Virus record (IMG/VR): IMGVR_UViG_3300003937_000254 | Coordinates: 1-27,525 of that record | Source of the DNA: a virus | Length of the DNA: 27,525 bases | Direction: 5' to 3' (one strand) | Shown here: positions 6,325 to 21,576 of the stretch, piece by piece | Numbering within the stretch: position 1 is the stretch's first letter | Layout: each line of letters opens with the position of its first letter | The notes under the pieces: generated by a model | What the model was told of the DNA's origin: nothing | Databases searched by the model: none | Seen by the model: only the letters and a program-made list of their open reading frames with translations | Position numbers and translations under genes: made by a program

Positions 6325-6914
6325 AATGGTTTATCTACAAAAAAGTGAAGACTCATTTTTCCTGTTGTTTCACTTTCAACGGAATGAAAATGAGTTTGAT
6401 TAGCAAGCATAACAACATCGCCTATTTCATATTCTAAATCTTTTATTTTTTTAAAATGATCGTGTCTCATATTAGCCAAATTTGCTGCATATTCTGTTTG
6501 TTCATAATCCCATCTATTCGCATCAGGATGTATAGGTTCCCACACATCTATTCTTGATCTCACATCAACGATAGGTATAATCGCTGTCCAATATCCTACA
6601 CATTGGTTCATATTCTTTTCCATATATGGTGACTTATCTCTATGTATAGATAACTCAACCGTATCAGGATAATGCCAAAGAAAACATTCTGATATCAAAT
6701 TATAACCAAGACTATCAGTTAATATATCTTTATACTTTTGTGGCAAATCAAAAACAGAAGAATATGTAGCTTTCTTATTTCCATCTGAAGTATAAGATAT
6801 AGCTTTCTCAGCTACAGCCCATTCATAGCAGTTAATATTATCTAAAACATAATTAGATAATTCTTGAACATTTCCTTTATATGGAACTTTATAAACACAA
6901 TTAATATCCGACAT
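6321..6914 (-). CDS. 2OG-Fe(II) oxygenase-like protein (197 aa)
   Basis: A putative iron pair H91-R-D93 (VELSIHRDKSPY) is followed by a beta-rich region (VGYWTAIIPIVD), a turn GDVVMLANQTHFHSVES with candidate distal His175 or His177, and a final strand KMSLHFFVDKP. This fits the double-stranded beta-helix oxygenase fold but is divergent, and the 2OG-binding Arg is not obvious (a Lys lies nearby). The start is uncertain: ATG 6914 gives MSDINCVYKV and a short overlap with the TauD-like gene, while ATG 6959 adds 15 basic residues and sits deeper in the upstream gene. Its stop overlaps the next ATG (ATGA). It belongs to the oxygenase cluster. Confidence 0.6.
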   Translation of the reverse strand: MSDINCVYKVPYKGNVQELSNYVLDNINCYEWAVAEKAISYTSDGNKKATYSSVFDLPQKYKDILTDSLGYNLISECFLWHYPDTVELSIHRDKSPYMEKNMNQCVGYWTAIIPIVDVRSRIDVWEPIHPDANRWDYEQTEYAANLANMRHDHFKKIKDLEYEIGDVVMLANQTHFHSVESETTGKMSLHFFVDKPL

Positions 6915-7791
6915 CCTTCTTTTTCCAACCAATTTTACCACCTGTGCTATCAACTTCATTACCTTTTAATTCATACCAATCACTAGGCATAATAACACTA
7001 TAGTCGCTTGCTATTCTCCATAGTTCTCGATTAACATCTTCAATTGCAGTACGTCTATGCAATGAAGCAAATTGGTCCATAAGTATTAAGTCACCTTTTT
7101 TAAATATATGGTGTGTAAGATACTTTGATCTCATTATCTTTGCATATAACTTATCAACAAATTCATCTCTATCAACAGGTACTTTCCTTTGTCCTTTTGA
7201 TTTATGCCATACCTTTCGTATAAAGTGATATGAGAAATAAATATATTCTTCACCAGTGTGTGGATGCTTATCAACTAATTTACGAATAGAACCAACATGA
7301 CTATCCATAACTTCTAATTCTGGATCGTCTTCATGTAATTCCATCATCGTATTATTTTCATATTTAAAATAACACGAAATGCCTCTATAGTATTCTTTAT
7401 CTTCTTCAGATAAATCTCTCCATACATCTCTCGTATTTACTATTGATAGAGTAGTATCTTCACATGGTTTTTCACAATATAATCCTATTAATATTTTTTT
7501 AACATCCTTTCTTGAATTTCCATTCGAATGCCAACCTAATTCTTTATCGCCAAACATTCCAACCTTACTGCCATCTTCATGTCGTTTTCCTGTAACTATA
7601 AAGATTTCTGGATTATCAAGTGGATTCATCCATAATCTTGGTGTTTCAGGTTCACCAAACCTTTTCATTAGTTTAACATATTCAGATTGAGTTAAATCTT
7701 GTTCAAAAAAGAAAATAGGTTTTCCAGTCTGAATTTCTTTTGCAACTTCTAATAATTTTTCATCACTAAAATTTAATATTTGAGTAGTCAA
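6901..7791 (-). CDS. TauD/TfdA-like oxygenase paralogue 3, HxN variant (296 aa)
   Basis: Overall a TauD-type dioxygenase: N-terminal MTTQILNFSDEKLLEVAKEI, iron-site strand ELGWHSNG, then EDTTLS, and the distal site SLHRR (His245) with the 2OG-binding Arg259 in ELWRIASDY. The first motif is H88-x-N90 where the family has HxD or HxE, so one iron ligand is changed. The same change occurs in the two tandem paralogues and in the gene at 10002. It starts with TTG at 7791, with GGAGG 7 nt upstream inside the preceding gene, and overlaps that gene by 26 bp. It is the most diverged of the three tandem copies. It may be an oxygenase with altered chemistry; the substrate is unknown. Confidence 0.75.
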   Translation of the reverse strand: MTTQILNFSDEKLLEVAKEIQTGKPIFFFEQDLTQSEYVKLMKRFGEPETPRLWMNPLDNPEIFIVTGKRHEDGSKVGMFGDKELGWHSNGNSRKDVKKILIGLYCEKPCEDTTLSIVNTRDVWRDLSEEDKEYYRGISCYFKYENNTMMELHEDDPELEVMDSHVGSIRKLVDKHPHTGEEYIYFSYHFIRKVWHKSKGQRKVPVDRDEFVDKLYAKIMRSKYLTHHIFKKGDLILMDQFASLHRRTAIEDVNRELWRIASDYSVIMPSDWYELKGNEVDSTGGKIGWKKKDVGY

Positions 7792-7803
7792 ATGCTAACC
7801 TCC
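7760..7803 (-). repeat. Junction repeat copy A of the tandem TauD-like genes
   Basis: This 44-nt segment and 8562-8605 match at about 39 positions. It contains the GGAGG ribosome site, the TTG start of the downstream gene and the stop of the upstream gene, so each copy carries the whole translational junction. It marks the boundary of the tandem duplication. Confidence 0.7.
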
Positions 7804-8593
7804 ATAACATACGCTTTGTGTCTTTAACAGGGGACCGCCTGTGTGTAGTATGTAATTGGTCCATAAACAATAAGTCACCTTTTCTAAATACATGATGTTT
7901 CATATATTTCGATTTAAATAACTTCCTCCATAACTCATCATATAAAGCTTCATGATTAATTCTTTCACCTCTTTCAAATGCGCCAACAATAAATGGTACC
8001 ATGAAATATAAATATTCTCTACCATCAATTGGATGTTTACCTACTAATGGCCTTCTATCTACATCCTCTTGATAAAACTCAGCTCCTGTGTTAATAGTAT
8101 TTTCAGGCGCTGGCTGATCAGGTAAATCATAGTCAGATATCTTATATATAGCATCTGTTACATTATCAAGCTGAATATCTATAGTTCTATATCTTTCTTT
8201 ATCTCTTTCAGATAATTCTGCAAATGCATCACATTGATTACATATTGATAATACAGTATCTATACATTCTTCTACACAATATAGGGTTACAACTATTTGG
8301 TCAAATTTATGACGAGCTGTACCATTAGCGTGCCATTGTAATTCACCTTCGCCAAATACTCCTATCTGTTTTCCATCTTCATCTTTTTGTCCACTTACAA
8401 GACTAATTTCTGGGTGATCTTTAGGATTCATAAAGTAATTATATCCTTCGCATTCACCCATACGATAACCCATTTTGACATATTCTTCTTGTGTCAATAC
8501 TTGATCGTACAACACAGCAGAACCCGTAGCTATAATTTCTTCAGCTAATTCTTTTAATTGTTCATCACTAAAATCTAATATTTGAGTAGTCAA
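7766..8593 (-). CDS. TauD/TfdA-like oxygenase paralogue 2, HxN variant (275 aa)
   Basis: Closely related to the next gene upstream (8568-9389): N-terminus MTTQILDFSDEQLKELAEEI, iron strand ELQWHANG (H88, N90), VVTLYCVEECIDTVLSICNQ, then DLLFMDQLHTTHRR with distal His251 and Arg265 in RMLWRLAFDYSN. The Asp/Glu iron ligand is Asn, as in its paralogues. It starts with TTG at 8593, preceded at 7 nt by GGAGG (8601-8605), which lies inside the Trp-Arg codons of the upstream gene. The last 26 bp overlap the next paralogue. Tandem duplication explains the arrangement. Soluble, cytoplasmic. Confidence 0.78.
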   Translation of the reverse strand: MTTQILDFSDEQLKELAEEIIATGSAVLYDQVLTQEEYVKMGYRMGECEGYNYFMNPKDHPEISLVSGQKDEDGKQIGVFGEGELQWHANGTARHKFDQIVVTLYCVEECIDTVLSICNQCDAFAELSERDKERYRTIDIQLDNVTDAIYKISDYDLPDQPAPENTINTGAEFYQEDVDRRPLVGKHPIDGREYLYFMVPFIVGAFERGERINHEALYDELWRKLFKSKYMKHHVFRKGDLLFMDQLHTTHRRSPVKDTKRMLWRLAFDYSNIKF

Positions 8594-8605
8594 ACGCAGT
8601 CCTCC
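8562..8605 (-). repeat. Junction repeat copy B of the tandem TauD-like genes
   Basis: Second copy of the junction described at 7760-7803: GGAGG, 7-nt spacer, TTG start, and the TAG stop of the preceding gene 26 nt into the next. A more diverged third version lies at about 9364-9400 and uses ATG. Confidence 0.7.
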
Positions 8606-9389
8606 ACAACATTCTATCCATATAATGTATAGGCGATCGTCTATGAATCGTCTTTAATTGGTCCATAAAGAGTAGGTCGCCTCTTCTAAATACGTGATGT
8701 TTCATATATTTTGATCTGAATACTTTCGGCCATAAGTCATCATAGAATTCTTTAATGTCTAATTTCTTATTTCCAATATATGCTTCTTTTAAATATTGAA
8801 TAAGAAAATAACAATATTCTTTGCCATCTATTGGATGAATACCAATAAGCGGTCGTCTATCATCATCTTCAATAGCTTCTTTATAATATTCATTGCTTAC
8901 ATTAAACTCCCGCTCTCTACCCATATAATCACTATTAGGCCACAATGTAACACCATTTCCATCAAGGTGTACATCAATACTTCGATAATAATCTTGTTCT
9001 TCTTTGGATAGATCAGCAAACATATGTGACCAATTACATATTGAGAGCACTGTATCTACGCATTCCTCAACACAATATAATGATACAACAAATTCTGTTA
9101 GCTTATGTCTACCAGCACCGTTCACATGCCATTCTAATTCTTGATCTCTAAACATACCAATAGAATTGCCATCTTCATCTACTTGACCAGATACAATACT
9201 AATTTCTGGAGTATCAGGTGGATTCATCCAATATCCTTGTTTCTCGCACTCACCAAAACGTTCGCATACTTCAACATGCTGTGCTCGTGTTAGATTTTGT
9301 TCATGGAGTACTACTGATCCATCTTCGATTATTTTATTTGCTAATTCTGTAAATTGATCGTCGCTATAATCTAATATCTGTAATGTCAT
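8568..9389 (-). CDS. TauD/TfdA-like oxygenase paralogue 1, HxN variant (273 aa)
   Basis: First of the tandem trio in transcription order. MTLQILDYSDDQFTELANKI at the start, iron strand ELEWHVNG (H88, N90), VVSLYCVEECVDTVLSICNW, distal DLLFMDQLKTIHRR (His249) and Arg263 in RMLWRTAFDYSN. Most conserved with the 7766 gene, differing mainly between residues 135 and 200. It starts with ATG at 9389 and overlaps the end of the Asp/Asn hydroxylase-like gene by 26 bp, the same length as the two overlaps downstream. The ribosome site GGACGG (5 nt before the ATG) is a weakened form of the GGAGG used by the other copies. Confidence 0.78.
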   Translation of the reverse strand: MTLQILDYSDDQFTELANKIIEDGSVVLHEQNLTRAQHVEVCERFGECEKQGYWMNPPDTPEISIVSGQVDEDGNSIGMFRDQELEWHVNGAGRHKLTEFVVSLYCVEECVDTVLSICNWSHMFADLSKEEQDYYRSIDVHLDGNGVTLWPNSDYMGREREFNVSNEYYKEAIEDDDRRPLIGIHPIDGKEYCYFLIQYLKEAYIGNKKLDIKEFYDDLWPKVFRSKYMKHHVFRRGDLLFMDQLKTIHRRSPIHYMDRMLWRTAFDYSNIRF

Positions 9390-9993
9390 TTTGTCCGTCC
9401 AAACTAAACATAAAGGCTATGCGTGGTTCGTCGCTCTTATTGAATACGCCATGAGCAAACCCAGTATTTAAGAAGTAGGCTTTACCTGCTTCTAAATGTG
9501 TTTCAATCTCTTCACCTTTCACTTTAAATAAATTCTTTACTTTCTCATTTGTATAAACTGGTATAATAACTCTTGTGGCATATGTAGGATCATAATCAAT
9601 ATGCATAGGAACATTCGTATGTGGATCAAGTTTAGTGATACGAACTCTCATCTTATCACATTCAAACTGATTACATATCTCTTCGAAATAGCTTCCTATA
9701 TATTTTTCATTTGGCTTATTATATAGTTTTTCCTCACCTCTTCTTAATCTTTCTTTTATGCTATCTGTATATTCTAATTCTTTTTCACCGCCAAATTCGG
9801 TTAAGTTTACTTGTTCAAAATTATCGTATACAGATTTACTCAATGCCATATGATTATCACATAACATTTTGTTAGCGGTCTTTACATCAACATAGTCATT
9901 AGCTAACTTATCAGTAGCAGCTTGAAGCTTATCAAGATCTATATTGATATGCTTTAATTCACCATGTGTTGGTAATTTATATTTTGTTCTCAT
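9364..9993 (-). CDS. Asp/Asn beta-hydroxylase-like 2OG oxygenase (209 aa)
   Basis: The clearest aspartyl/asparaginyl hydroxylase-type domain in the window: RVRITKLDPHTNVPMHIDYD gives H131-x-D133; a strand RVIIPVYTN follows; then YFLNTGFAHGVFNKSDEPRIAF gives distal His181 and Arg191. The N-terminal 115 residues are helical and less conserved. Members hydroxylate Asp/Asn or related residues using O2, Fe(II) and 2OG. I chose ATG 9993 (MRTKYKLPTHG) because a TATAAATA octamer sits 5 nt before it; a longer frame from 10047 would run back into the upstream gene. The last 26 bp overlap the first TauD-like paralogue. Confidence 0.8.
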   Translation of the reverse strand: MRTKYKLPTHGELKHINIDLDKLQAATDKLANDYVDVKTANKMLCDNHMALSKSVYDNFEQVNLTEFGGEKELEYTDSIKERLRRGEEKLYNKPNEKYIGSYFEEICNQFECDKMRVRITKLDPHTNVPMHIDYDPTYATRVIIPVYTNEKVKNLFKVKGEEIETHLEAGKAYFLNTGFAHGVFNKSDEPRIAFMFSLDGQNDITDIRL

Positions 9994-9998
9994 ATTTC

Positions 9999-10006
9999 TA
10001 TTTATA
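9999..10006 (-). promoter_or_regulatory. T4-type late promoter octamer TATAAATA
   Basis: Minus-strand TATAAATA overlapping the TAA stop of the 10002 gene and followed, after 5 nt, by the ATG at 9993. The spacing is the same as at 2955-2962, and no Shine-Dalgarno sequence is present in between. Confidence 0.65.
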
Positions 10007-10931
10007 CAACATAGTCGTGGTGTTTCCTCATATGTGATTTGTACCATGTAGCAGTTCGTAATAGTTTACGTGGCTTATCTTTAAGTATATCTGGTCTTCT
10101 ATGTATACCTATTACATTATCAAATAATGCTATATCTCCTTCTTGCCACGTATGCATATATACGTATCTATCATTACATACATAATCATTCCATAACTCA
10201 TTAAATAATTCTTCTGAGTGTTCATACGGTTCACCATCTTTTAAAAATCCGTGTACCTCATATGGACTAAAGAATAAACCTTCGACACCTAATGGATGTT
10301 TAGGTACAAGTCTATGATTATTCATTATACCACGAGATGCACCAAATTTGTGTTTATTCTCAGGCTCCATATTTAATGCATTAAAAACCTCACGAGTTTC
10401 TCTATTCTTTTGAATTTCTCGTAGAACTTCTTCTCCATATATTTGTCCAAACTTAGGCTGCCATGCTGGCTTATATACACCTAATGTTCTTTTAGGGTCA
10501 AGTACAACTGTTAATTCTCTTAAAAGATTTTGTTTCTTTTCAGGTAATTGATTAAAATATGGTATTGAACTAGCAAACCATGTTTCAGTTTCATAGCTTA
10601 TTGTCTTCGCATATAAACCTATGACTTCCTCTGCGTCAGCAACTGGAGTCATATTAGTATGCCAATCTAATTCATAGTCACCAAATAATCCTTGGTTTCT
10701 ATCATCAACCATTTCATTTGTTACTGTCCAAAACAGATCTGAATGTTCTTTATCAGTACACCATATTTCTGGACTTAAGTGATAACCTATACCTAAAGAC
10801 CATTCAGCGTATTCTTCAGGAGTTGCTCCGCTATCACGTATAACAACTACACCCACATTTGCAATTAATTCAGCAATGTTGTCTGGATTTAATTCGTCTA
10901 ATGTAAGACCTAAGTAAGTTGGTACTACCAT
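10002..10931 (-). CDS. TauD/TfdA-like oxygenase, divergent, HxN variant (309 aa)
   Basis: N-terminal half MVVPTYLGLTLDELNPDNIAE and an insertion-rich middle differ from the three tandem copies, but the core is TauD-like: YELDWHTNM gives H91 and N93, then EVIGLYAKT, and a distal DIALFDNVIGIHRRP with His277 and Arg292 in KLLRTATW. Again Asn stands where the iron ligand Asp/Glu is expected. The ATG at 10931 overlaps the aminotransferase stop as ATGGTAG, a natural coupled start; a TTG at 10952 would add seven residues. It carries a long insert (about residues 170-205) lacking in the paralogues. The substrate may be larger or different; not predictable. Confidence 0.75.
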   Translation of the reverse strand: MVVPTYLGLTLDELNPDNIAELIANVGVVVIRDSGATPEEYAEWSLGIGYHLSPEIWCTDKEHSDLFWTVTNEMVDDRNQGLFGDYELDWHTNMTPVADAEEVIGLYAKTISYETETWFASSIPYFNQLPEKKQNLLRELTVVLDPKRTLGVYKPAWQPKFGQIYGEEVLREIQKNRETREVFNALNMEPENKHKFGASRGIMNNHRLVPKHPLGVEGLFFSPYEVHGFLKDGEPYEHSEELFNELWNDYVCNDRYVYMHTWQEGDIALFDNVIGIHRRPDILKDKPRKLLRTATWYKSHMRKHHDYVV

Positions 10932-11752
10932 TCTATAAGTGGAGTTAAGCAAAGTCTTGCTGTTGGATTACCTTTAGCTCGCCTTCTTTTTTTATAATAT
11001 GGATCACCTGATGTTGCAAGAAAAAAACAATCAGATGGTACTAAACTATATTTTTTACATAAGTGTATCTGTGTTTGTCTATGTCTATTAAACATTTCAT
11101 CAACTGTATAATTACTCATAATAAGTTCCATTGTTTTTACCGATGCATAATTCCAATTTTCAAAATCTTTTAGCATATGTAATGTCTTATGAGGTTTTTT
11201 TGTATAAACTAAACCACATCTATTTCCTATCATACCAAATCCTTTTGAGAAACTAAACATAACTTGTTCAGTATTTTTTGGTATATGTATTTTTTGTATG
11301 CCTGTACTACTTATATATGTACAATCTAATATGACTGGACACTCAACATCTTTTAAGTCATTATGAATATTACCACAACGAGCAGATGGATTTGATAGGT
11401 ATAATACTTTATGTTTATCTAAATCATCATCAATCTCTGTGCCAGCATCGATTATATTAGGATATTCATATTCACCTTTAATGTATTGCCATTGACGATC
11501 TTCTTTAAGTAACCATTGATGGATAGCATCAGTACTGCCATTTGTAACATAGCAATAAGGAAATTCGCTTAAATCAATAATGTCATGAACCCAATTACGA
11601 TGTGTAGCCTCAACCCAATCTAAATCTTGAGTTGCTTGCCCTGACCCACGTTTGTAATAAGTATCGGATATACGTTGTTCCTTCAAAAGATGCCAAACAT
11701 CTTCAGTCATAGGAACATCAACCCATCTATTATTTTTTAATTCTTTTTCCAA
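10925..11752 (-). CDS. Compact PLP-dependent aminotransferase, class I/II fold (275 aa)
   Basis: Fold-type I landmarks are present in order: TNGSTDAIHQW (cofactor phosphate region, residues 70-80), LYLSNPSARCGN with N121-P122, ILDCTY with Asp143 and Tyr146 contacting PLP, and FSFSKGFGMIGNRCG with the Schiff-base Lys170 and Arg178. At 275 residues it is far shorter than the usual 380-420; the C-terminal small domain seems reduced, ending in ARLCLTPL where the substrate carboxylate-binding Arg is expected. It could be an aminotransferase, a C-S lyase or a decarboxylase of the same fold. It overlaps the desaturase by 16 bp and is coupled to the TauD-like gene. Confidence 0.75.
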   Translation of the reverse strand: MEKELKNNRWVDVPMTEDVWHLLKEQRISDTYYKRGSGQATQDLDWVEATHRNWVHDIIDLSEFPYCYVTNGSTDAIHQWLLKEDRQWQYIKGEYEYPNIIDAGTEIDDDLDKHKVLYLSNPSARCGNIHNDLKDVECPVILDCTYISSTGIQKIHIPKNTEQVMFSFSKGFGMIGNRCGLVYTKKPHKTLHMLKDFENWNYASVKTMELIMSNYTVDEMFNRHRQTQIHLCKKYSLVPSDCFFLATSGDPYYKKRRRAKGNPTARLCLTPLIEW

Positions 11753-12378
11753 AATCTATCCGCCAAATGTCCACCTAAATCGTATTTACCTAATATTAAC
11801 CTACGTGGCTCCTCATGATGTACTTTGTGATAACCATCACCGCCTAAAATCCAATTCATCCATGGTCCATCAGTAGGACCATTCCAATGACCAAATATAT
11901 TTAACATACCAAATCCTACCTTTGCAAATACATAAGGCATAAAGGCTGCAGCCCACCAGAAGTACGGTGATATAGCCATACACACGGCCCAATATAACCA
12001 TAAGAATGTTTCCCAATTCTTATGAGCCCATACAAGTCTTGGATTATCGTATAAATCTTTTGCAAATCTTACTGGTATATGTGGTAACTTCCATGTTGTA
12101 AGTGCCACTTTCCAATAACCTATTTGTTTAGCATCGTGAGGATCTAATGGTCCTTCAAGATCTGCATGATGCATTCTATGACTTGCTACCCAACCAATAG
12201 GCGTACGAACACAAGCAATCATAATGAGTATTATGAAGCCAACCTCGTGAAATACACTTGTTTTAAATTGTTGATGAGCAAAGTATCTATGTAATCCTAC
12301 AGAAACAGCATAGTGTGTAACTACCTGGCACCATAAGAATCCTAATCCTGTTGCCCACGCAAATAATTCCCAGTTCAT
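11737..12378 (-). CDS. Membrane acyl (delta-9 type) desaturase (213 aa)
   Basis: The three His boxes of acyl-CoA/acyl-lipid desaturases are complete: HRYFAH (30-35), HRMHH (67-71) and HKVHH (184-188). Hydrophobic helices lie at about 8-28, 44-60 and 120-158. The enzyme introduces a double bond into a fatty acyl chain in the membrane using O2 and electrons from a ferredoxin or cytochrome. At 213 residues it is shorter than the typical 270-320, losing terminal regions but no catalytic His. It is first in the minus-strand run, 10 nt downstream of a TATAAATA octamer. It suggests that a lipid, or a lipid-linked product, is involved in this island. Confidence 0.88.
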   Translation of the reverse strand: MNWELFAWATGLGFLWCQVVTHYAVSVGLHRYFAHQQFKTSVFHEVGFIILIMIACVRTPIGWVASHRMHHADLEGPLDPHDAKQIGYWKVALTTWKLPHIPVRFAKDLYDNPRLVWAHKNWETFLWLYWAVCMAISPYFWWAAAFMPYVFAKVGFGMLNIFGHWNGPTDGPWMNWILGGDGYHKVHHEEPRRLILGKYDLGGHLADRFWKKN

Positions 12379-12388
12379 ATTATCAACT

Positions 12389-12396
12389 TATTTATA
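12389..12396 (-). promoter_or_regulatory. T4-type late promoter octamer TATAAATA (proximal, leftward)
   Basis: Minus-strand TATAAATA ending 10 nt before the desaturase ATG in the only divergent intergenic region. It would drive the leftward operon. Confidence 0.65.
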
Positions 12397-12406
12397 ATTA
12401 TATACC

Positions 12407-12414
12407 TATTTATA
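12407..12414 (-). promoter_or_regulatory. T4-type late promoter octamer TATAAATA (distal, leftward)
   Basis: A second leftward TATAAATA 18 nt upstream of the first. Transcripts from here would carry a leader of roughly 20 nt before the desaturase start. Confidence 0.55.
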
Positions 12415-12417
12415 ACA

Positions 12418-12425
12418 TATAAATA
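12418..12425 (+). promoter_or_regulatory. T4-type late promoter octamer TATAAATA (rightward)
   Basis: Plus-strand TATAAATA, 26 nt before the ATG of the 971-residue gene, with a weak ribosome site (GAGAAG) between. It is separated by only 3 nt from the distal leftward octamer, so the two promoters are back to back. Confidence 0.65.
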
Positions 12426-12451: not shown

Positions 12452-15367
12452 ATGTTAAACATAGTATGTACGAGTAAACCTTGTGATGGCCTATTCTATT
12501 ATAGTTATGAATATTGCTCTCATCTAAACGAAAAAGGTATACCCGCACAGGTATATGTTATAACGCACCGTGATTTTACATCAGGTGATTATACAGAATC
12601 TCTTAATGACAAATATATCCATTGCAAAAATATAGTATTTAATAATGATTATATCCCTGATGATTGTATAACATTGATTATGGGTAGAAGTATGATGACC
12701 TTAGCCCATTGGGGATGGAATGATTATAGATCAGTACAAAAAGAATCACTTAAAAAACTATTTGGTAATAAAGTTATTTCTGTTTATTCAGAGAATCACC
12801 CTAAAGATTATCCTAAAGCTCTAAAATTCTTTAAGCCAACAGAGGTTATCGATTTATGTGACACAGATGTTTATCCTAATGGTGTTGGTGAACACTTTGA
12901 AAAGATAATACATTTCCCTATATACAAAGAAGTTGAAGAAGATATTCAATTCGATCATTTATTTTTAGGTACAAATTCAGAGTATTACGAAGGTATAGAA
13001 AAAATAATAGATGATTATCCTGACCATGGTATATTAACCTATCATCAGAAGTATATAAACTTTGAGCATAACAATCTAAGATCTCCTGTCCCTAATCTAT
13101 TAGGCAAATTTAAAACATATGTTTATACAAAAGATACATTTGACCCAGCTCCAAGATTATTTCAAGAAGCAAGATGGCTTGGCAAAAAGATAATTTATCA
13201 TAGAAAGAATCCTACTAAAGATGGTGGTTATTGGTATTGGAAGAGAGGAATAAAAGCACAAGATATAATGCCAATTCTTACAGCTATTGATACATTAAAT
13301 GGAAAGATTTCATTAGAAACAGAATTAGTTGTGAGAGATATTCCACATCAATTTGGTGCATTGATGGAAGCTGAAAATATAGAAATCAGTGTTGTGACTG
13401 AAAAACTAATAGAACAAATAGAAAATAATGAAATTTGGTTTTGTAGTATTCCATGGATTATGGCATTTACCGATGAAGAAGGTAACTATGCTCAATGTAA
13501 TTTTGGGGAGCGACAGCAGCTCGCACATGGCGAGGCCTTTATCATTAATGAAGGCTTTGACGATATGCAAAGACCAATTCAAGAAATTGAATATTTACCA
13601 TATAAACAAGGAAATACATTACATGATACTTCGCTTAAAGAATGGATGACTGGAAGTACAATGGAAAATATTCGTAGAGAAATGGTAGATCAACAATCTG
13701 ATTACGAATTTGTTAATCATCATTGTAAGAAATGCATAAATGATGAGAAGGGTCAAAAATTAACCTCACGAAGATTAATAGCTAATAGCATTTATAAAAA
13801 TGAAAAACAAATTTGGAGACATGTTCTCGAAGGTGCTGCAAGAACTAAAAGAGGTGAAGGATATGAATTTAAAGGTAGAATTCTTGAAATACAAGTAAAA
13901 TCTTTTGGTATAGAATGTAACTTAGATTGTCATATGTGTCATCATATGAGTTCTTCAATACGAACTAAAATGGCATTTGAAAACGATGTATGGAATGATG
14001 TCGTATGGGGTGATAAAGAAAATGCTCGCGAAAAATCTGTAAATGCTATGAGGAAAAAACCAGTAGATGAAATTAATAATCAAATCATAGAACTTGCTCC
14101 ACACATTTATAATTTAAAAATCATTGGTGGCGAACCTCTTATTATGAAAAAGCATTATGAACTATTAGATAGGTTAATAGAAATAGATGAAGCCAAAAAT
14201 ATACAATTAAAATATCAAACGAATGCAACAGAATTAAAAGTAGGTAAACATAATGTGCTTAAGTATATACCACATTTTTGGCAGGTTTTAGTAGTTGTAT
14301 CTTTAGATGGAATTGAAGGATATAATGATTATATTAGAAGAAGATCTGATTATTGGAAGATATATGATAACATAAAAATATTTTCTAAATTTCCAAATGT
14401 TATTATTGATATAAATTCTGTAGTTACATTTTTTAGTGTATTACATTTACACGAAATTCCATCAGTATTCCCAACATATCTGAAGAATTGGTGGCCAGTA
14501 GATATGCCAAGTCAAATGAAAGCAAACAATTTGCCACAAGATATAAAAGATAGATTAATTCCTATATATGAAAATACTCCACCTTATGAAGAAATTGCAG
14601 ATCTTCTTCGTTTACCAGCAGATCCTGACTTTAATCCTGTAGAATTATATAAATACTGTATAGATATGGATAGTTCATATGAGGGAACGAAGTGGCAAAT
14701 GAATTTGCTGGAAGTATTCCCTGAACTTAAACCACATTTTCTTGAAACTACGGGAAAAGGTTGGCATAAAGATTATTGTATAGAAATGCCACAAATAACT
14801 GGAGTAGTAGATAGTGTTCAAGATTTTTATAAAAAGATTTTAAAAGAAAAGCCAATAGGCGAAGTATGGTATGAAGGTATTACACATCATAGAATACCAA
14901 AAGAGCATCCAGTATATGATATAGTTAATGAAGACTTATTTCATACGGGTGAAATGGATTGGGTTGGAGTACTTGACGCAGCCAAAATAGAATCAGGTGA
15001 GCATAAAGCCGAAATACGTGCTTACTTAAGTGTACAAAATGGCGATGTAGATTTTATACCACATATTGATAGTGGATATGTTTTAATATTTCCATTTGAA
15101 ATATCGGAAAATAGTAATTATAAGTTACAATATTTAAATAAAGATAGGCATGAGGAAATTGTTTATGAGCATGAATATAGAGAAGATGAAAATGGTAACG
15201 TTATACCTATTTTACATAATGGTCCAAACCATTGGCATACAGTCAATTGGGAAAGTACAAAAGACAAATATTGGGTTCAAATAATATTGAATCCAAAAGA
15301 AGGTGGATGGGAAGGATTATTAAAAGCAATAAGCAATAAAACGTTTTTTAAAAGGAGAAAAAAATGA
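12452..15367 (+). CDS. Three-domain protein: glycosyltransferase-like, radical SAM with Cys-rich auxiliary domain, 2OG oxygenase (971 aa)
   Basis: Residues 1-310 look like a GT-B glycosyltransferase (Rossmann-like start; TFDPAPRLFQEARWLGKKII near the end of the domain). Residues about 325-450 form the Cys-rich auxiliary domain seen in the genes at 16685 and 18226 (WFCSIPW; C349; C425xxC428). Residues 480-720 are a radical SAM core: C489-NLD-C493-HM-C496, then IIGGEPL at 559 and VSLDGIEGYNDYIRRRS. Residues about 780-955 form a 2OG oxygenase-like jelly roll: H871-I-D873 in FIPHIDSGY, distal His929 and a YWVQIILNP strand. No linker stop or frameshift is visible. It leads the plus-strand operon and is coupled by ATGA to the nitroreductase. 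The rSAM part is certain, the 2OG part good, the GT part tentative. Confidence 0.8.
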   Translation: MLNIVCTSKPCDGLFYYSYEYCSHLNEKGIPAQVYVITHRDFTSGDYTESLNDKYIHCKNIVFNNDYIPDDCITLIMGRSMMTLAHWGWNDYRSVQKESLKKLFGNKVISVYSENHPKDYPKALKFFKPTEVIDLCDTDVYPNGVGEHFEKIIHFPIYKEVEEDIQFDHLFLGTNSEYYEGIEKIIDDYPDHGILTYHQKYINFEHNNLRSPVPNLLGKFKTYVYTKDTFDPAPRLFQEARWLGKKIIYHRKNPTKDGGYWYWKRGIKAQDIMPILTAIDTLNGKISLETELVVRDIPHQFGALMEAENIEISVVTEKLIEQIENNEIWFCSIPWIMAFTDEEGNYAQCNFGERQQLAHGEAFIINEGFDDMQRPIQEIEYLPYKQGNTLHDTSLKEWMTGSTMENIRREMVDQQSDYEFVNHHCKKCINDEKGQKLTSRRLIANSIYKNEKQIWRHVLEGAARTKRGEGYEFKGRILEIQVKSFGIECNLDCHMCHHMSSSIRTKMAFENDVWNDVVWGDKENAREKSVNAMRKKPVDEINNQIIELAPHIYNLKIIGGEPLIMKKHYELLDRLIEIDEAKNIQLKYQTNATELKVGKHNVLKYIPHFWQVLVVVSLDGIEGYNDYIRRRSDYWKIYDNIKIFSKFPNVIIDINSVVTFFSVLHLHEIPSVFPTYLKNWWPVDMPSQMKANNLPQDIKDRLIPIYENTPPYEEIADLLRLPADPDFNPVELYKYCIDMDSSYEGTKWQMNLLEVFPELKPHFLETTGKGWHKDYCIEMPQITGVVDSVQDFYKKILKEKPIGEVWYEGITHHRIPKEHPVYDIVNEDLFHTGEMDWVGVLDAAKIESGEHKAEIRAYLSVQNGDVDFIPHIDSGYVLIFPFEISENSNYKLQYLNKDRHEEIVYEHEYREDENGNVIPILHNGPNHWHTVNWESTKDKYWVQIILNPKEGGWEGLLKAISNKTFFKRRKK
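14115..14197 (+). repeat. Radical SAM core repeat, copy 1
   Basis: Near-identical at nucleotide level to 17573-17655 in the next long radical SAM gene, covering the GGEPLIMKKHYELLD codons. Flanking regions are much more diverged, so recent duplication with local gene conversion is possible. Confidence 0.5.
15352..15357 (+). promoter_or_regulatory. Strong ribosome-binding site AAGGAG for the nitroreductase
   Basis: AAGGAG lies 6 nt before the ATG at 15364, inside the last codons of the preceding gene. Most other starts in the window lack such a clear site. Confidence 0.6.
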
Positions 15368-16026
15368 ACCAATTAGAATTACTCAGTAAGAGTAAACACG
15401 TAATTGAATGGAGTGATGAAGTTCCTGATAAAGCATTAATAGAAAAAATATTATGGAATACTTGGAAAGTTACTCGTTCAAAAAATAGTTTTATGCCCTA
15501 TCATGTAAATGTATTAGGTCCAGATAAAACTGCAGAAAAAACTTCAATATGGGAAAAAACTAAAGTTAATGATGTATTGATGAATGAAAAGAATAAAGAT
15601 TATGTCCATCCTGCCACGAGTAACAATAAATTATTTGAACAATTGGCATCTGCACCATATACTATAGTTATGTCACAAAGAATTTGCGAGCCAAATCCAT
15701 TATATAAAAGACATGTAGAAGGTGGTGGTTATTATGAGCAAATGGATAATGATGCAATCAATGGTCAAATGTGTGCGTTAATAGAAACTGGTATGTTTTA
15801 TTCTAACCTAACTGCATTCGCTTTAGAAGAAGGCTTAGATACCTCATGCATTCTTTGTTTTTCAATTGATATGAAAGATTGGGAAGACTTAGATTTTGTA
15901 AAAGAATGTCCATTATTACTTGTGACAATTGGAAAATGTAAAGAGTCGCGAAGAGAATGGTTAAATGATATAGATAGTGCTGATGATAAAAAACCGGAGC
16001 CAGAAACAGTAATAAATTGGGTTTAA
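15364..16026 (+). CDS. Nitroreductase-fold flavoprotein, paralogue A (220 aa)
   Basis: Nitroreductase-like pattern: an N-terminal helix, then RSKNSFMPYHVNVLG (the FMN-contacting strand region in the family), APYTIVMSQR, and the ETGMFYSNLTAFALEEGLDTS helix typical of the fold. Members are FMN enzymes that reduce or oxidise small molecules with NAD(P)H. The gene at 25334 shares the same layout (KQNAFPYKCYVLGP; EVGMIAKTITGAVCDAGWDTS) and, like this one, is followed by an isochorismatase-like gene. The central part is poorly conserved with textbook nitroreductases. It starts in an ATGA overlap with the three-domain gene. The substrate is unknown. Confidence 0.7.
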   Translation: MNQLELLSKSKHVIEWSDEVPDKALIEKILWNTWKVTRSKNSFMPYHVNVLGPDKTAEKTSIWEKTKVNDVLMNEKNKDYVHPATSNNKLFEQLASAPYTIVMSQRICEPNPLYKRHVEGGGYYEQMDNDAINGQMCALIETGMFYSNLTAFALEEGLDTSCILCFSIDMKDWEDLDFVKECPLLLVTIGKCKESRREWLNDIDSADDKKPEPETVINWV

Positions 16027-16032
16027 TATATT

Positions 16033-16701
16033 ATGGAAGATAGAAGATTAATATTATTGATTGACTTTGAGGGTCATCCAGCTTTGGGTGATAACTATAT
16101 GAATAATCTTAGATTTTCTTATTTAAACCAATTCTTATTTTCTGGAGCATCTGGTCATCATGATGAGCCATCTTTGATTATATCCTCTCATCACTATGAT
16201 GCACATCATAAAAAAACATGGGAACTGGAGTTGATGACAAAAGCAGATGGTCTACATAAATGGGTAACCATTTCTCCAGCTGATAAAGAGTTAGATTATA
16301 AAGATATTATAGAAATAGCAAAGGAAAAAGATGTTAATATAACAGATATTTTTATAGCAGGTTGTAATACATGTGGATGTGTAGCATTATCAAGAGGATA
16401 TTCTGCAGTACATTGGGCTAAAGCTGGATATAATGTAAAGATAATGCTTTCTATGTGCGCTGATTATCAAGTGAAAGGCGATAGTACAATTGAAAAAAAT
16501 ATAGTAGCTTTTGCTAGATTATATGAAATTATTAAATGGCATTCAGTAGTTGATGAGATTGATATTTTATATGAACCGACATGGGCTTACAAAGAAATAG
16601 AATTTTTGATGACTGAATATCAAAAAGCAGATTTGAAACATCAACAAGGAGATGTTTCTTTTTTACCAAAGGATGATAAACAATATGAAAGACCACAATA
16701 A
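16033..16701 (+). CDS. Isochorismatase-like (cysteine hydrolase) protein, paralogue A (222 aa)
   Basis: The layout resembles isochorismatase-type hydrolases: an N-terminal strand with an Asp (LILLIDFEG, D11), a central KWVTISPAD segment, then IFIAGCNTCGCVALSRGYSAVHWAKAGYNV with a Cys (C116) at the nucleophile position, and a following LSMCADYQ strand. The match is moderate and the catalytic Lys is not assigned. The paralogue at 26025 keeps the second half (TGTNTAGC, LSMCADYQ) but has Asn in place of the N-terminal Asp. It follows the nitroreductase by 6 nt and overlaps the next gene by 17 bp. An alpha/beta fold of other function is possible. Confidence 0.5.
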   Translation: MEDRRLILLIDFEGHPALGDNYMNNLRFSYLNQFLFSGASGHHDEPSLIISSHHYDAHHKKTWELELMTKADGLHKWVTISPADKELDYKDIIEIAKEKDVNITDIFIAGCNTCGCVALSRGYSAVHWAKAGYNVKIMLSMCADYQVKGDSTIEKNIVAFARLYEIIKWHSVVDEIDILYEPTWAYKEIEFLMTEYQKADLKHQQGDVSFLPKDDKQYERPQ

Positions 16702-18226
16702 AGAACTTCCAACATATATGACAAAGGGCGGACCTGGCGATACGTCTACAGCAGGTCACGTAAATACCGATGCTTGGTTTGTAGAGCCTCTTAAAACACA
16801 TTCTGAGGATGGCCGTAAGAAAAGAGATATAAGAGTTATTCCAGACTTACTTAAACATGGATCAATTGCTCAACAAGCCAAAGACCAAGAAATATTCTTT
16901 TGTGATATTCCATTTACTCAGTTATACATGGAGATAGATGGTAATTATCAACCATGTTGTTTCGGTAAACCTGATGGTAAATCTAATGTACTCAACACAT
17001 CAATTGAAGATTGGATGTTAAACAGCGAAGCTCTAAATGGTATTCGTAAAGAAATGTTAGATCCAAACGAAAAAGAATTTCCTAATGTAAATAAGTATTG
17101 TGAACGATGTGTAAGTGATGAGAGACGTTATGGTAAATCAAGACGTACAGCATGTATGAAAATACATACTAATGATTCTTCATTTTGGCCAAAGGTTGAT
17201 CGTGCTGCTCAATTATTTAAAGCAAGTGGTCTATTTGCCTTTGATGAAAGAATAATTGAGGTTCAATTAAAAGTTTATGGTTCCGAATGTAACTTAGATT
17301 GTTATATGTGTACTCATGCAAATTCAACAATTCGCCAAAAGGTTGCTCATGAAGGTGTATGGAATGATTCAGTATTTGGTGAATTAACCCAAGAAACTCA
17401 AGACTTTTTTGATTGGGTAACAAGAGATAAAACTGAAATATTGAATGAACCTGATATAACACAAGAAGCAGATGGTACATTTATGATACCAATACATAAT
17501 GAAACTTTTCCTATATCTAATACAAAATCTATGGTGGACCAAACTATAGAGATGGCTCCATATATACGAAGCATAAAAATTATTGGTGGTGAACCTCTTA
17601 TTATGAAGAAGCACTATGAACTATTAGATAAATTAATAGAAATCGATCAAGCTAAACATATCATAGTTAAATATCAAACTAATTTGACAGAGACAAAGGC
17701 TGGTAAACATAACATCTTTAATTATATTCCTCACTTTAGACTTGTTTCTATGGTTGGATCTATTGATGGCATCGGACCAGTTATTGAATACATGAGAAGA
17801 AGATGTAGCTGGGATAAGATTGTAGACAATGTAGATATTTGTAATAAGTATGATAATGTTGATGTTGACTTTAATGGATTAGTTTCTTTCCTTAGTGTAT
17901 TAAGATTTTATGAAATGATTGATTGGTGTTTAGATGAAGGTAAAGATAAAGTTAATATGGTAAATTGGGCTATGTTAGAACATCCAACACATTTAAGAAC
18001 TAATAATTTACCACAAAAATTAAAAGATGACTTACTCCCTAAATATGAAGGTTGGCCAGATATTCAAGAAGCTCTTCGTATGCCTGCTGATGATATAGAC
18101 ATACAAGACACATTTGATTATTTATTAAAGGCTGATGAGTATTACACGGGAACAAGATGGGAACTACACTTATTTGATGTATTTCCAGAATTAGAAGAGT
18201 ATTATATAAAACCAGAAAATAGATAA
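16685..18226 (+). CDS. Radical SAM protein with N-terminal Cys-rich (SPASM/twitch-like) domain (513 aa)
   Basis: It begins MKDHNKELPTYMTKGGPGD, a start chosen because a longer frame from 16652 only runs into the upstream gene. Residues 75-150 form an auxiliary iron-sulfur domain: FFCDIPFTQLYMEIDGNYQP, C91-C92, IEDWMLN, then C139xxC142 and YGKSRR. The radical SAM core has C202-NLD-C206-YM-C209, IIGGEPL at 301, and GSIDGIGPVIEYMRRR. In the known SPASM/twitch families the auxiliary domain follows the core; here it precedes it. Such enzymes typically modify peptides or small molecules by hydrogen abstraction. The stop overlaps the next start by one base (TAATG). The same architecture is seen in the 18226 gene. 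Confidence 0.85.
   Translation: MKDHNKELPTYMTKGGPGDTSTAGHVNTDAWFVEPLKTHSEDGRKKRDIRVIPDLLKHGSIAQQAKDQEIFFCDIPFTQLYMEIDGNYQPCCFGKPDGKSNVLNTSIEDWMLNSEALNGIRKEMLDPNEKEFPNVNKYCERCVSDERRYGKSRRTACMKIHTNDSSFWPKVDRAAQLFKASGLFAFDERIIEVQLKVYGSECNLDCYMCTHANSTIRQKVAHEGVWNDSVFGELTQETQDFFDWVTRDKTEILNEPDITQEADGTFMIPIHNETFPISNTKSMVDQTIEMAPYIRSIKIIGGEPLIMKKHYELLDKLIEIDQAKHIIVKYQTNLTETKAGKHNIFNYIPHFRLVSMVGSIDGIGPVIEYMRRRCSWDKIVDNVDICNKYDNVDVDFNGLVSFLSVLRFYEMIDWCLDEGKDKVNMVNWAMLEHPTHLRTNNLPQKLKDDLLPKYEGWPDIQEALRMPADDIDIQDTFDYLLKADEYYTGTRWELHLFDVFPELEEYYIKPENR
17573..17655 (+). repeat. Radical SAM core repeat, copy 2
   Basis: Partner of 14115-14197. Differences are mostly at third codon positions, so protein-level selection also explains part of the match. 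Confidence 0.5.
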
Positions 18227-19686
18227 TGGATAAAAAATTAACGCAAGGTGGTCCTGGTGACCAATACCTTGGCGGTGGAAAGGTAGACACAGGTGAATGG
18301 TTTACAAAATTTCCTCTTTTAGAAGATCAAATTAAAAATCAAGAGATTTGGTTTTGTGGTGCACCATTCCAAATGATATACACATCCACTAATGGTCAAT
18401 TCCTTCCTTGTTCTTGGGCTCAAGAGTCAGATCCAGATACTGGTGAACCGTATGGTCCAAATATTAAAGATGTAAGCTGCAAAGATTATTTTAATAAAGA
18501 TGAAACATTGAATCATATGCGTGAAGAGATGCTTACACCTGATGATCCTTTAAAGCTTGTAAATAAAATATGTAGAAATTGTAGATATCAAGAAGAACAC
18601 TATGGAAGATCAAGACGTCAAGCTTCTTTAAAACTCCAAACAAATGATAAAAGACTTTGGCCTCGCATGCGTAATACCGTTGAACGTTTTAAAAAAATAG
18701 AAAGTTGGAGTCATGATGAAACAGGTTGGGCGACTCATTCAGATGCATTTTTTAAAGAAAGAATATTTGAAGTACAAGTAAAAGCTTATGGTAATCAATG
18801 TAACTTAGATTGTTATATGTGTATTCCATATGATTCTAGTATACGACTTCAAACAATGCATCACGAAGATTTAAAAGACCAAAATATTTTTTCTGAAGCT
18901 TCGATGGAAAGGATTCCAGCTTTATCTATAAATACAATTGATGATATTACAGATCAGATTGCAGAAATTGCTCCGTACATATATAATTTAAAATTAATTG
19001 GTGGTGAACCATTAGTAATGAAAAAGTTTTATGGATTATTAGAAAAGATAGTTGAATCAGGTGAAGCTGAAAATATAATGGTTAAGTACCAAACAAATAT
19101 GTCTATATTAGAATTTGAAAAATTAAAAATTTCTAAATTTATTCCTCACTTTGGATTATTTGAATTTACAGTATCATTAGATTCAATAGGTGAAGCAAAT
19201 AATTATATAAGACGTAGATCTAATTGGGACGAAATTGTTGAAAATATAAAACATGTTAAGCAATACGAGAATGTATGGGTAAACATTAATGGTGCTATAT
19301 CATTCCTATCTGTACTTCGTTTCCATGAATTAATAAAATGGTTTGGTGAGAATAAAGCTTTATTTCATCAAATAAATTGGTCAAATATTAGAGGTCCTGG
19401 TAAATTATGTGCTAATGTATTACCAAAACCACTTAAAGAAAAACTTATACCGTTGTATGAAGGCTTCCCAGATATACAACAGGTATTAAGAGAATCTCCT
19501 CATGATACATATTATGGCAATAGAGTTGAAGGAGATGATGATTACATAGATATACAAGACACATTTAAATATCTACTTATGAATGATAAACATTATAAAG
19601 GAACAAAATGGGAAATGGATTTATTTAAAGTATTTCCAGAACTAGAAGAATATTACATACCCGATATACAGGAGATAGAGTTATGA
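18226..19686 (+). CDS. Radical SAM protein with N-terminal Cys-rich domain, paralogue (486 aa)
   Basis: Paralogue of the preceding gene. The N-terminus MDKKLTQGGPGD shares the GGPGD motif. The auxiliary domain has WFCGAPFQMIY, C62 (followed by Ser, where the paralogue has a second Cys), then C116xxC119 and YGRSRR. The radical SAM core is C192-NLD-C196-YM-C199, LIGGEPL and VSLDSIGEANNYIRRRS. The C-terminal 90 residues (ending FPELEEYY) are shared with the paralogue and with part of the three-domain protein. It is one-base coupled upstream and ATGA coupled to the nitroreductase downstream. Loss of one Cys suggests a changed auxiliary cluster. The substrate is unknown. Confidence 0.85.
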   Translation: MDKKLTQGGPGDQYLGGGKVDTGEWFTKFPLLEDQIKNQEIWFCGAPFQMIYTSTNGQFLPCSWAQESDPDTGEPYGPNIKDVSCKDYFNKDETLNHMREEMLTPDDPLKLVNKICRNCRYQEEHYGRSRRQASLKLQTNDKRLWPRMRNTVERFKKIESWSHDETGWATHSDAFFKERIFEVQVKAYGNQCNLDCYMCIPYDSSIRLQTMHHEDLKDQNIFSEASMERIPALSINTIDDITDQIAEIAPYIYNLKLIGGEPLVMKKFYGLLEKIVESGEAENIMVKYQTNMSILEFEKLKISKFIPHFGLFEFTVSLDSIGEANNYIRRRSNWDEIVENIKHVKQYENVWVNINGAISFLSVLRFHELIKWFGENKALFHQINWSNIRGPGKLCANVLPKPLKEKLIPLYEGFPDIQQVLRESPHDTYYGNRVEGDDDYIDIQDTFKYLLMNDKHYKGTKWEMDLFKVFPELEEYYIPDIQEIEL

Positions 19687-20459
19687 ATGCAACAATAACA
19701 GCGGCTGTCGATATTGCACGAGTCGCACAAAGAAACTGGGATTTGTCTAAGACAATTCCACAAGCAGATTTAGACACACTAATTTATGCTGCGCAGCAAA
19801 GTCCAAAGAAAGCAATGGAAACCCATTATGCTTTACATGTATTTACTGATAAGACTAAAATTAGACAAATTTATGATCAGACAAAGAAATTCCTTGTAGC
19901 ACCAACTGATGCTACTGAACCACCCGATGATATGTTTGAAATGAGAGATGGTCAACCTTGGCAAAACGATGAAAAATATTCTGTAAAGAATTCTCAAGTC
20001 TTAGCAAATGCTATGTTTGTTTTTACTGAAGATAGAGGTACAGCAAAAGGTGGTACTCATTATATGGCTAAAGAAGGCGGAGAATATAATGCTTTAACAG
20101 TATATGAAGAGCAAATTGATTTTTCAATTGGAATCGCTGTTGGTAATTTAACATTATCTGCAGCTATGTTAGGATATAAAACTGGCATATGCTCAGCACT
20201 CGAATGTGATAATATAGCTAATATATTATCTAATGGTCAATCAACGCCAGGTTCAAAAGATATTATGAACCCTAAACTAATTATTGGTATAGGATATCCC
20301 AATGAGGGAGTTGATAGAACATGGCATCATGAAACTAAAAACTCTGAATTAGGTTTTGATGCTAGTGATAGAGGACCACTCGATGAACTATTTAAATTCC
20401 CTTCATTTGATGGTACAGGCGATGGAACAGATTTATATATAAATGGAGTGAAGCAGTGA
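19683..20459 (+). CDS. Nitroreductase-family flavoprotein (258 aa)
   Basis: The most typical nitroreductase of the three: an N-terminal helix VDIARVAQRNWDLSKTIPQ, YAAQQSPKKAMETHYALHVF in the FMN-binding region, FSIGIAVGNLTLSAAMLGYK with GICSALE for the central helix and glycine turn, and LIIGIGYPNEG near the C-terminus, the strand that ends in a GxGxP-like turn in the family. It should bind FMN and use NAD(P)H. An acidic tail follows the core. It sits between radical SAM genes, coupled by ATGA upstream and GTGA downstream, and might act on their product or reduce a flavin for them (inference). Confidence 0.8.
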   Translation: MNATITAAVDIARVAQRNWDLSKTIPQADLDTLIYAAQQSPKKAMETHYALHVFTDKTKIRQIYDQTKKFLVAPTDATEPPDDMFEMRDGQPWQNDEKYSVKNSQVLANAMFVFTEDRGTAKGGTHYMAKEGGEYNALTVYEEQIDFSIGIAVGNLTLSAAMLGYKTGICSALECDNIANILSNGQSTPGSKDIMNPKLIIGIGYPNEGVDRTWHHETKNSELGFDASDRGPLDELFKFPSFDGTGDGTDLYINGVKQ

Positions 20460-20854
20460 GTTCGTCAGAGGCAGCAATGAATAAGCAGAAAGAGGATCAA
20501 GAAGCACAAGAACTTGATATCGGTGAATTTAAATTAGAGATTAAACCACGTTGTTTAACCTTTGAACCGAAGGCTTATCATAAACCTGCTGCCTATACAT
20601 CTGATGGATTTATGTTACCATGCTGTTGGCTAGATGATCCAAAGAATGACTTTGGTGTTGAATACTTTGGGTTAAAAGATAACCATCTTCGATTAAATAA
20701 AGCTGAATCAGTTGAAGCAATATTTAAATCAGAAGAATGGAATCATTTCTTTTGGACATTACTGCATGACCAAAAACATGCAATGAAGCATTGTAAATAT
20801 AAGTGTGGTAATTTAAGGAAAGATAATAATTTATATTTGACGGAAACAATATAA
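20456..20854 (+). CDS. Stand-alone SPASM/twitch-like iron-sulfur domain protein (132 aa)
   Basis: A free auxiliary domain without a radical SAM core: PRCLTFEPKA (C33), YTSDGFMLPCCWLDDP (C56, C57), VEAIFKSEEWNHFFW, and KHCKYKCGN (C113, C117). It aligns by pattern with the last 110 residues of the gene at 22412 (PDCL, VPCCEMD, VEDIKNVFMSDPW, MCQTFCRKN), where the same domain is fused after the radical SAM core. It is therefore a split subunit, probably partnering the radical SAM protein encoded next. GTG start in a GTGA overlap; one-base (TAATG) overlap with the next gene. The first 25 residues are hydrophilic and charged. Confidence 0.75.
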   Translation: MSSSEAAMNKQKEDQEAQELDIGEFKLEIKPRCLTFEPKAYHKPAAYTSDGFMLPCCWLDDPKNDFGVEYFGLKDNHLRLNKAESVEAIFKSEEWNHFFWTLLHDQKHAMKHCKYKCGNLRKDNNLYLTETI

Positions 20855-21576
20855 TGGCAAGATTTACACAACTACAACCTGATGATCGCATCGCCGATTG
20901 GTATGCAACAAATGAAATATGGGGATCACCTAATATTGATTCATCACATAGATGTATCTTAAGGTGTCCACAATGTTTAAGACAAAAGAAAGAAGGTGGA
21001 CCACGTATTAAGAGAGCATACGATCTAGAGCCACAAGATTTTCAAAAAATTATAGATTACTTCCAGCATTGCGTCACATTCTGTGGACAAATATCAGACC
21101 CAATCTATAACCCACACTTTTTAACATTCTTAAAAATGTTAGATGGTACTGGCAGAGGTGTACGTATTGCTACATATGGTATGAATGAGAATGCATGGTA
21201 CTTTGGTGTTGATGGTATCGATAAGAAGAGTGAACTATATCGTATTGGTTCTAATTTTGACAACGTATGGGAAACAATGCGATTAGGTAAATCAATGGGT
21301 GTTGCTATTGTTTGGCAATATATTGTGTTTGGTTATAACGAACATGAGATAGAGATAGCAAAACAAATGGCAGAAGACGAAGGCTTTACTCTATTATTAG
21401 TTAAAACAAATAGAGGCTTCGACCCAGATTCAAGGAATATTCGTGATAGTATGAAAGACATCTATAACAATTTTCCAGCACCTAGTAAGAAAAATACAGT
21501 AAAGAAAATTAAAAACGAAGAATACTTTAATGTCACTAAAGAATTAGAGACATGGAGGAATACAAGGAATACATAA
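20854..21576 (+). CDS. Radical SAM protein without auxiliary domain (240 aa)
   Basis: Radical SAM motif C34-ILR-C38-PQ-C41 near the N-terminus, then FCGQISDPIYNPHF replacing the usual GGEP segment, IATYGMNENAW, and IVWQYIVFGYNEHEI. The gene at 22412 shares these features (CRLKCGGC; FCGNLSDPIYHPDF; IEWQWIVFKYNQEDI), so the two form a subfamily distinct from the GGEP-type paralogues. The core ends at about residue 200, with no Cys-rich C-terminus. The missing domain is encoded by the preceding gene. Coupled to the PP-loop gene by TAATG. Confidence 0.82.
   Translation: MARFTQLQPDDRIADWYATNEIWGSPNIDSSHRCILRCPQCLRQKKEGGPRIKRAYDLEPQDFQKIIDYFQHCVTFCGQISDPIYNPHFLTFLKMLDGTGRGVRIATYGMNENAWYFGVDGIDKKSELYRIGSNFDNVWETMRLGKSMGVAIVWQYIVFGYNEHEIEIAKQMAEDEGFTLLLVKTNRGFDPDSRNIRDSMKDIYNNFPAPSKKNTVKKIKNEEYFNVTKELETWRNTRNT

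Follow-up and report, generated by a model that had tools for sequence, protein, structure and literature searches.

A three-part phage protein with a GT-B-like domain, a radical SAM domain and a probable 2OG-type oxygenase domain in a pelagimyophage host recognition cluster

Introduction

SAR11 bacteria are the most abundant in the ocean, and in their myophages large islands beside the tail fibres are given to enzymes of unknown product. Glycosyltransferases as well as radical SAM cassettes have been described in the host recognition cluster of pelagimyophages (PMC7029224), and a T4-like marine genome holds 12 radical SAM genes (PMC5332604). The locus studied here raises the question of whether one phage polypeptide combines several of these chemistries, and what such a protein might make. 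The window, namely the whole 27,525-nucleotide stretch that was analysed, is a 27.5-kb virus record (IMGVR_UViG_3300003937_000254), in which an earlier note, made from the letters alone, had read one 971-residue frame as combining sugar transfer, radical chemistry and oxygen-dependent hydroxylation. A physical tie of a glycosyltransferase to radical SAM and oxygenase steps would be evidence for a shared substrate of the three chemistries, and the island's product would become testable through the expression of one protein.

Results

The frame at 12452-15367 (+ strand) encodes a 971-aa protein and is the first gene of the plus-strand operon, the leading position that the earlier note had given it. 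The same three-part order was found over the full length, at 69% identity, in two contigs from other metagenomes (L006 and L007), an identical gene is carried by a 51-kb contig (L005), and fragments of the protein occur in L008, L094 and L099. The dN/dS ratios of the window against L006/L007 were 0.19 for the N-terminal part, 0.31-0.34 for the radical SAM part and 0.38-0.40 for the C-terminal part; purifying selection acts on all three parts of this protein, and the frame is real. Many relatives have the three parts separate or absent, as would be expected if assembly or sequencing had wrongly joined separate genes here; an assembly join had been raised in the earlier note itself. However, such a join can be ruled out, its probability being negligible, because the same order recurs at 69% identity in L006/L007 and unchanged in L005, and every part is under selection.

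The N-terminal part (residues 1-285; 12452-13306, + strand) was modelled by AlphaFold from an alignment of 49 sequences with a pLDDT of 94.1 and a pTM of 0.92. Two facing Rossmann-like domains were seen in the model, with full-length Foldseek alignments against the PDB (probability 1.00), and the leading fold matches were PimA (E 4.1e-5) and T4 alpha-glucosyltransferase (AGT; E 3.4e-4), followed by BshA and SenB. The GT-B-like N-terminus proposed in the earlier note, for which a glycosyltransferase match of residues 1-310 was sought, is thus borne out at the level of fold, with TM-scores of only about 0.5 against known glycosyltransferases. Against viral models, Foldseek returned a 974-aa unnamed protein at 79% identity and many named glycosyltransferases. 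A Pfam search with 50 members of the N-terminal part gave no credible match and no glycosyltransferase family, and a PDB sequence search gave no meaningful match. In cellular genomes, a first scan found no copy and a second gave only two short MAG contigs, which are probably phage. As judged from the model, the N-terminal part defines a GT-B family that is widespread in phages and has no Pfam entry.

Concerning the possible active site, the segment D231-PAPRxxQ-E239 (13142-13168, + strand), in which D, P, A, P, R and E are invariant in the 49 sequences, is proposed to correspond to the EX7E motif that retaining GT-B enzymes carry, from its spacing and position rather than from superposition on a glycosyltransferase. 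In the C-terminal Rossmann half, no phosphate-binding Arg/Lys loop of the GT4 type was recognised by eye, and G173-T174-N175 stands there instead. Because this usual basic loop was not recognised, the N-terminal part could be a non-catalytic or an unusual glycosyltransferase.

Residues 329-761 (13436-14734, + strand) form an N-terminal-twitch radical SAM part, which is spanned by NF033640 at 239.7 bits (curated cut-off, 170 bits) and also exceeds the cut-off of the Pfam Radical_SAM family (PF04055). The complete radical SAM core claimed earlier was found, with the cluster motif C489xxxC493xxC496 (13916-13939, + strand) and a GGEP motif at residues 559-562 (14126-14137, + strand). The Cys-rich auxiliary segment of the earlier note was found in its four cysteines, C331, C349, C425 and C428 (13442-13735, + strand), and its identity is here revised to the N-terminal twitch domain, with an auxiliary [4Fe-4S] cluster, of the known radical SAM subfamily NF033640. 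A sequence search found no solved relative of this part. That oxygen-sensitive clusters should stand beside an oxygenase had been presented as a puzzle; it is a weak one, because the whole island mixes radical SAM enzymes with TauD and Asp/Arg-hydroxylase (AAH) oxygenases, and cytosolic radical SAM enzymes are common in aerobic bacteria.

The C-terminal part (residues 769-971; 14756-15364, + strand) bears the signature H871-x-D873, 55 residues, H929-x-V-x3-S-x3-K939, with Ser at H+6 and Lys at H+10. K939 stands at the putative 2OG-binding position, about 10 residues past the distal His, where the AAH family has Arg. H871, D873 and H929 are invariant in four relatives, and the signature is invariant in both divergent groups. 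The fetched loci have 3450 open frames, and the pattern HxD-x30-90-HxVx3Sx3[RK] matched only 22 of them (ten related to the Asp/Arg-hydroxylase gene of the window, six C-terminal parts and six unannotated frames, similar by eye), while shuffled C-terminal parts matched at a frequency of 0.0005. Against the window's AAH gene (9364-10047), the profile of the C-terminal part placed the motifs in register in an alignment that was not significant; profile-profile comparison with the window's oxygenases was likewise not significant, and the HMM search gave no match to PF05118, another 2OG family or any family. The deeper search found relatives in six contigs at most, and none was found among named phages. 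Taken by its motif, the C-terminal part is probably a divergent 2OG-Fe(II) oxygenase of the Asp/Arg-hydroxylase type. Of the C-terminal HxD...H jelly roll in the earlier note, the motif stands and the jelly roll is suggested by this signature, the structure model having a pLDDT of 33 from four sequences only.

How the three parts came together could be followed among the relatives. In most of 85 matching frames, the N-terminal part stands alone as a gene of about 285 aa, and a minority have it fused. In the tree of the N-terminal part, one clade (97/94) comprised the fused group together with its secondary losses, and the fused domains formed one clade in the radical SAM tree (SH-aLRT 100); read from these trees, the fusion of the two parts has a single origin. 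In L075-L077, no more than about 30 bases separate a gene for the N-terminal part from an unfused N-terminal-twitch radical SAM gene directly after it, and among unfused genes, the second radical SAM gene of L077 is nearest to the fused domains (SH-aLRT 93). This gene order is a plausible forerunner of the fusion. The C-terminal part is confined to the window/L005 and L006/L007 lineages.

The fused radical SAM domain was also lost in several relatives. L010 and L011, whose N-terminal part is 88% identical to that of the window, have the segments with CxxxCxxC (the SAM-cluster motif) and GGEP deleted in frame, with the twitch cysteines retained. These frames (L010 1960-4104; L011 9000-11144) contain a radical SAM pseudoenzyme under purifying selection, and because the remnant is still constrained (dN/dS of about 0.22), they encode a working protein without radical SAM chemistry. 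L019 keeps the C-terminal half of the radical SAM domain alone, and only a short remnant is left in L013/L014. The window, L006, L007, L009, L015 and L017 have every cluster-binding motif intact. Since close relatives have deleted the core in frame (L010/L011 and L019) or lost the domain (L013/L014), the fused radical chemistry is optional, and since relatives exist without the radical SAM core or without the C-terminal part, both parts are dispensable. The conserved core is thus the N-terminal part, to which the other domains add optional modules for tailoring or docking: the N-terminal part mostly stands alone, relatives lose the radical SAM part, the C-terminal part is restricted to two lineages and the L010/L011 remnant is still constrained. 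Therefore, the union of the three parts in one polypeptide, as proposed in the earlier note, holds as an architecture and not as an obligatory unit.

The same losses may be read in another way, in which the glycosyltransferase part alone is the enzyme, and the fused radical SAM and C-terminal parts serve as scaffolds, or as degenerate partners, on which the stand-alone downstream radical SAM enzymes dock. The constrained L010/L011 remnant, with its twitch cysteines and no CxxxCxxC or GGEP, the half-domain of L019, the short remnant of L013/L014 and the intact N-terminal-twitch radical SAM genes downstream in the same loci all fit this reading. We nevertheless consider it somewhat unlikely, as the cluster-binding motifs are all intact in the six loci named above, the window among them, and the radical SAM and C-terminal parts are constrained.

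Downstream of the three-part gene, a nitroreductase-like gene (15364-16026, + strand; Pfam match below the cut-off) overlaps its stop, followed by a second and a third N-terminal-twitch radical SAM gene (16652-18226 and 18226-19686, + strand; NF033640, 288 and 276 bits) and a nitroreductase (19683-20459, + strand; PF00881 above the cut-off). A pair of genes for a small Cys-containing protein and a radical SAM protein (20456-21576, + strand) is kept in most relatives; next come an NAD synthase/QueC-type (PP-loop) enzyme (21552-22415, + strand; weak Pfam and PHROG matches) and, running off the window, a DegT/DnrJ/EryC1/StrS sugar aminotransferase (26629-27525, + strand; PF01041, 242 bits). The nearest solved relatives of this DegT are scyllo-inositol transaminase, QdtB and perosamine synthase. 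It is present in 67 loci, and together with other island genes it is about as widely shared as the three-part protein. The earlier note's suggestion that the three-part protein may define the substrate of the pathway is taken here as a conjecture.

Several further features of the window were observed. The small Cys-containing gene (20456-20854), which precedes the radical SAM gene at 20854-21576, resembles a detached SPASM/twitch domain, and a stretch similar to its product lies at the C-terminus of 22412-23713. At 6901-9389, three TauD-type oxygenase paralogues lie in tandem and overlap at their ends, and a fourth is found at 10002-10952. Three SGNH/GDSL-like paralogues, at 1625-2497 (the distal end of the operon on the minus strand) and in tandem at 23710-24519 and 24516-25337 (+ strand), are possibly glycan esterases or acyltransferases. 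A CHASE2-domain adenylate/guanylate cyclase that flanks the island (1-1456) has a match in pelagiphage HTVC008M and is broken at 955-957 by a one-base frame change (CCC TGA). A programmed frameshift was considered here and rejected, since the close relative L017 is open in one frame; the break is a change or an error in the window record.

The divergent operon begins with a fatty-acid-desaturase-like gene (11737-12378, - strand; PF00487), and the 73-bp intergenic region between the two operons contains the motif TATAAATA three times, against an expectation of about 0.02 at the rate of the window as a whole. The first lies upstream of the plus-strand operon (12418-12425, + strand) and is conserved in 5 relatives, the second would serve the divergent oxygenase operon (12407-12414, - strand) and the third is another minus-strand copy (12389-12396); the two nearest the three-part gene, namely the first and the second, are both conserved in relatives. 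The Pelagibacter phage Mosig EXVC030M (Kyanoviridae), the sole named phage with the N-terminal part, has three TATAAATA motifs at the corresponding divergent junction. Because TATAAATA is the T4 late promoter core, late expression of the island is likely.

The surroundings of the island were read on the 51-kb contig with the identical gene, the window itself holding the island only. On this contig, T4-type baseplate genes, phrog_358 and tail fibres are followed by a Nol-like carbamoyltransferase and the island. The TobZ/Nol-like carbamoyltransferase, which is nearest to TobZ, belongs to the same island past the window end (L104 9410-11035, 51-kb sister contig), and matches to GT8 and to a methyltransferase, both weak, were also obtained on the sister contig. 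Mosig EXVC030M has a similar island in a divergent arrangement, with the N-terminal part as a stand-alone gene and with synteny that includes VrlC. The island is the host recognition cluster of T4-like pelagimyophages.

Discussion

The families of the neighbouring genes point to sugar chemistry. In aminoglycoside and O-antigen sugar pathways, twitch radical SAM enzymes, DegT aminotransferases, GT-B enzymes, carbamoyltransferases and 2OG enzymes act on sugars, and the enzyme set of the island resembles these pathways by analogy. We propose, with moderate confidence, that a late pathway makes an unusual amino-sugar glycan and attaches it to the tail fibres or the host surface, and that the three-part protein is a glycosyltransferase with tailoring domains. 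The glycosyltransferase of a T4-like pelagimyophage would have been fused to a radical SAM enzyme first and to a 2OG-type oxygenase afterwards. The resulting protein would head the plus-strand operon of a late-transcribed sugar-pathway island within the host recognition cluster, beside the tail fibres. An activated (amino)sugar from the DegT aminotransferase and neighbouring enzymes would be transferred by the GT-B part, the sugar or its carrier may then be oxidised or rearranged by the fused radical SAM part, and the product may be hydroxylated by the C-terminal part, the last two acting as tethered tailoring steps. We infer the donor, the acceptor and this order of steps, in which each part is taken to be catalytic; the finished glycan would be carried either by the tail fibres of the phage itself or by the surface polysaccharide of the host.

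A stronger version, which we hold as a tentative possibility, is that this single phage polypeptide is a trifunctional assembly-line enzyme that acts on one glycan by sugar transfer, radical SAM chemistry and 2OG hydroxylation in turn, and that is built on a GT-B family specific to phages and absent from current family libraries.

Two other destinations of the pathway were weighed. As the N-terminal part has T4 AGT as one of its best fold matches (E 3.4e-4) and the phage is T4-like, the part might be a DNA glycosyltransferase of that kind in a module that hypermodifies phage DNA. However, PimA outscores T4 AGT, tail fibres adjoin the island and restriction systems are almost absent from SAR11 hosts (PMC7029224). 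DNA glucosylation is also made less likely by the closest isolate, Mosig, which has no gene of the thymidylate-synthase/hydroxymethylase family, and we regard it as quite unlikely.

Alternatively, the island might make a small molecule or a modified peptide, that is, a natural product and not a surface glycan, with the three-part protein modifying a free aminocyclitol-like or peptide substrate. The aminoglycoside-like enzyme set (a DegT near scyllo-inosose aminotransferases, a TobZ-like carbamoyltransferase, twitch radical SAM, GT-B and 2OG oxygenases) is compatible with this, and radical SAM/nitroreductase sets are known from peptide maturation. Nevertheless, no precursor peptide or exporter was recognised by unsystematic inspection, and the adjacency of tail fibres and the weak GT8 match nearby favour surface glycans, which leaves a natural product unlikely. 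A surface glycan remains our preferred product.

For each part of the protein, a known fold or family exists to which it belongs or which it resembles. In the literature searched, no description was found of the three-part fusion, of the GT-B family or of the island chemistry. PimA (of the GT4 type) and T4 AGT, the best PDB fold matches, have two Rossmann-like halves like the N-terminal part, and its invariant D231-x7-E239 may correspond to EX7E. The N-terminal part differs from them in its identity of about 10% with a TM-score of about 0.5, its smaller size (285 aa), its lack of a recognised Arg/Lys phosphate loop and of Pfam or PDB sequence matches, and its fusion to other enzymes. UniProt A0A1B1IX00 (BFVD, 974 aa), an unnamed entry without annotation, is 79% identical as compared over the N-terminal part only, and its length is compatible with the three-part architecture.

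With the twitch radical SAM proteins of NCBIfam NF033640, the radical SAM part shares the full-length match, the N-terminal twitch, CxxxCxxC and GGEP; unlike them, it is fused to a GT-B-like part and falls in its own clade of fused members, some of which have lost the core. The same islands encode 2OG oxygenases of the aspartyl/asparaginyl beta-hydroxylase type (PF05118), which share HxD...HxVx3Sx3[R/K] with the C-terminal part, in register with the window's AAH gene, whereas the C-terminal part has Lys for Arg and no significant HMM match, the likeness being one of motif. Finally, the pelagimyophage host recognition cluster (PMC7029224; Mosig EXVC030M) and the window island have in common a T4-like phage, a position beside tail fibres, glycosyltransferases, radical SAM cassettes, DegT and TauD; Mosig EXVC030M differs in its stand-alone N-terminal part and in having no NF033640 gene.
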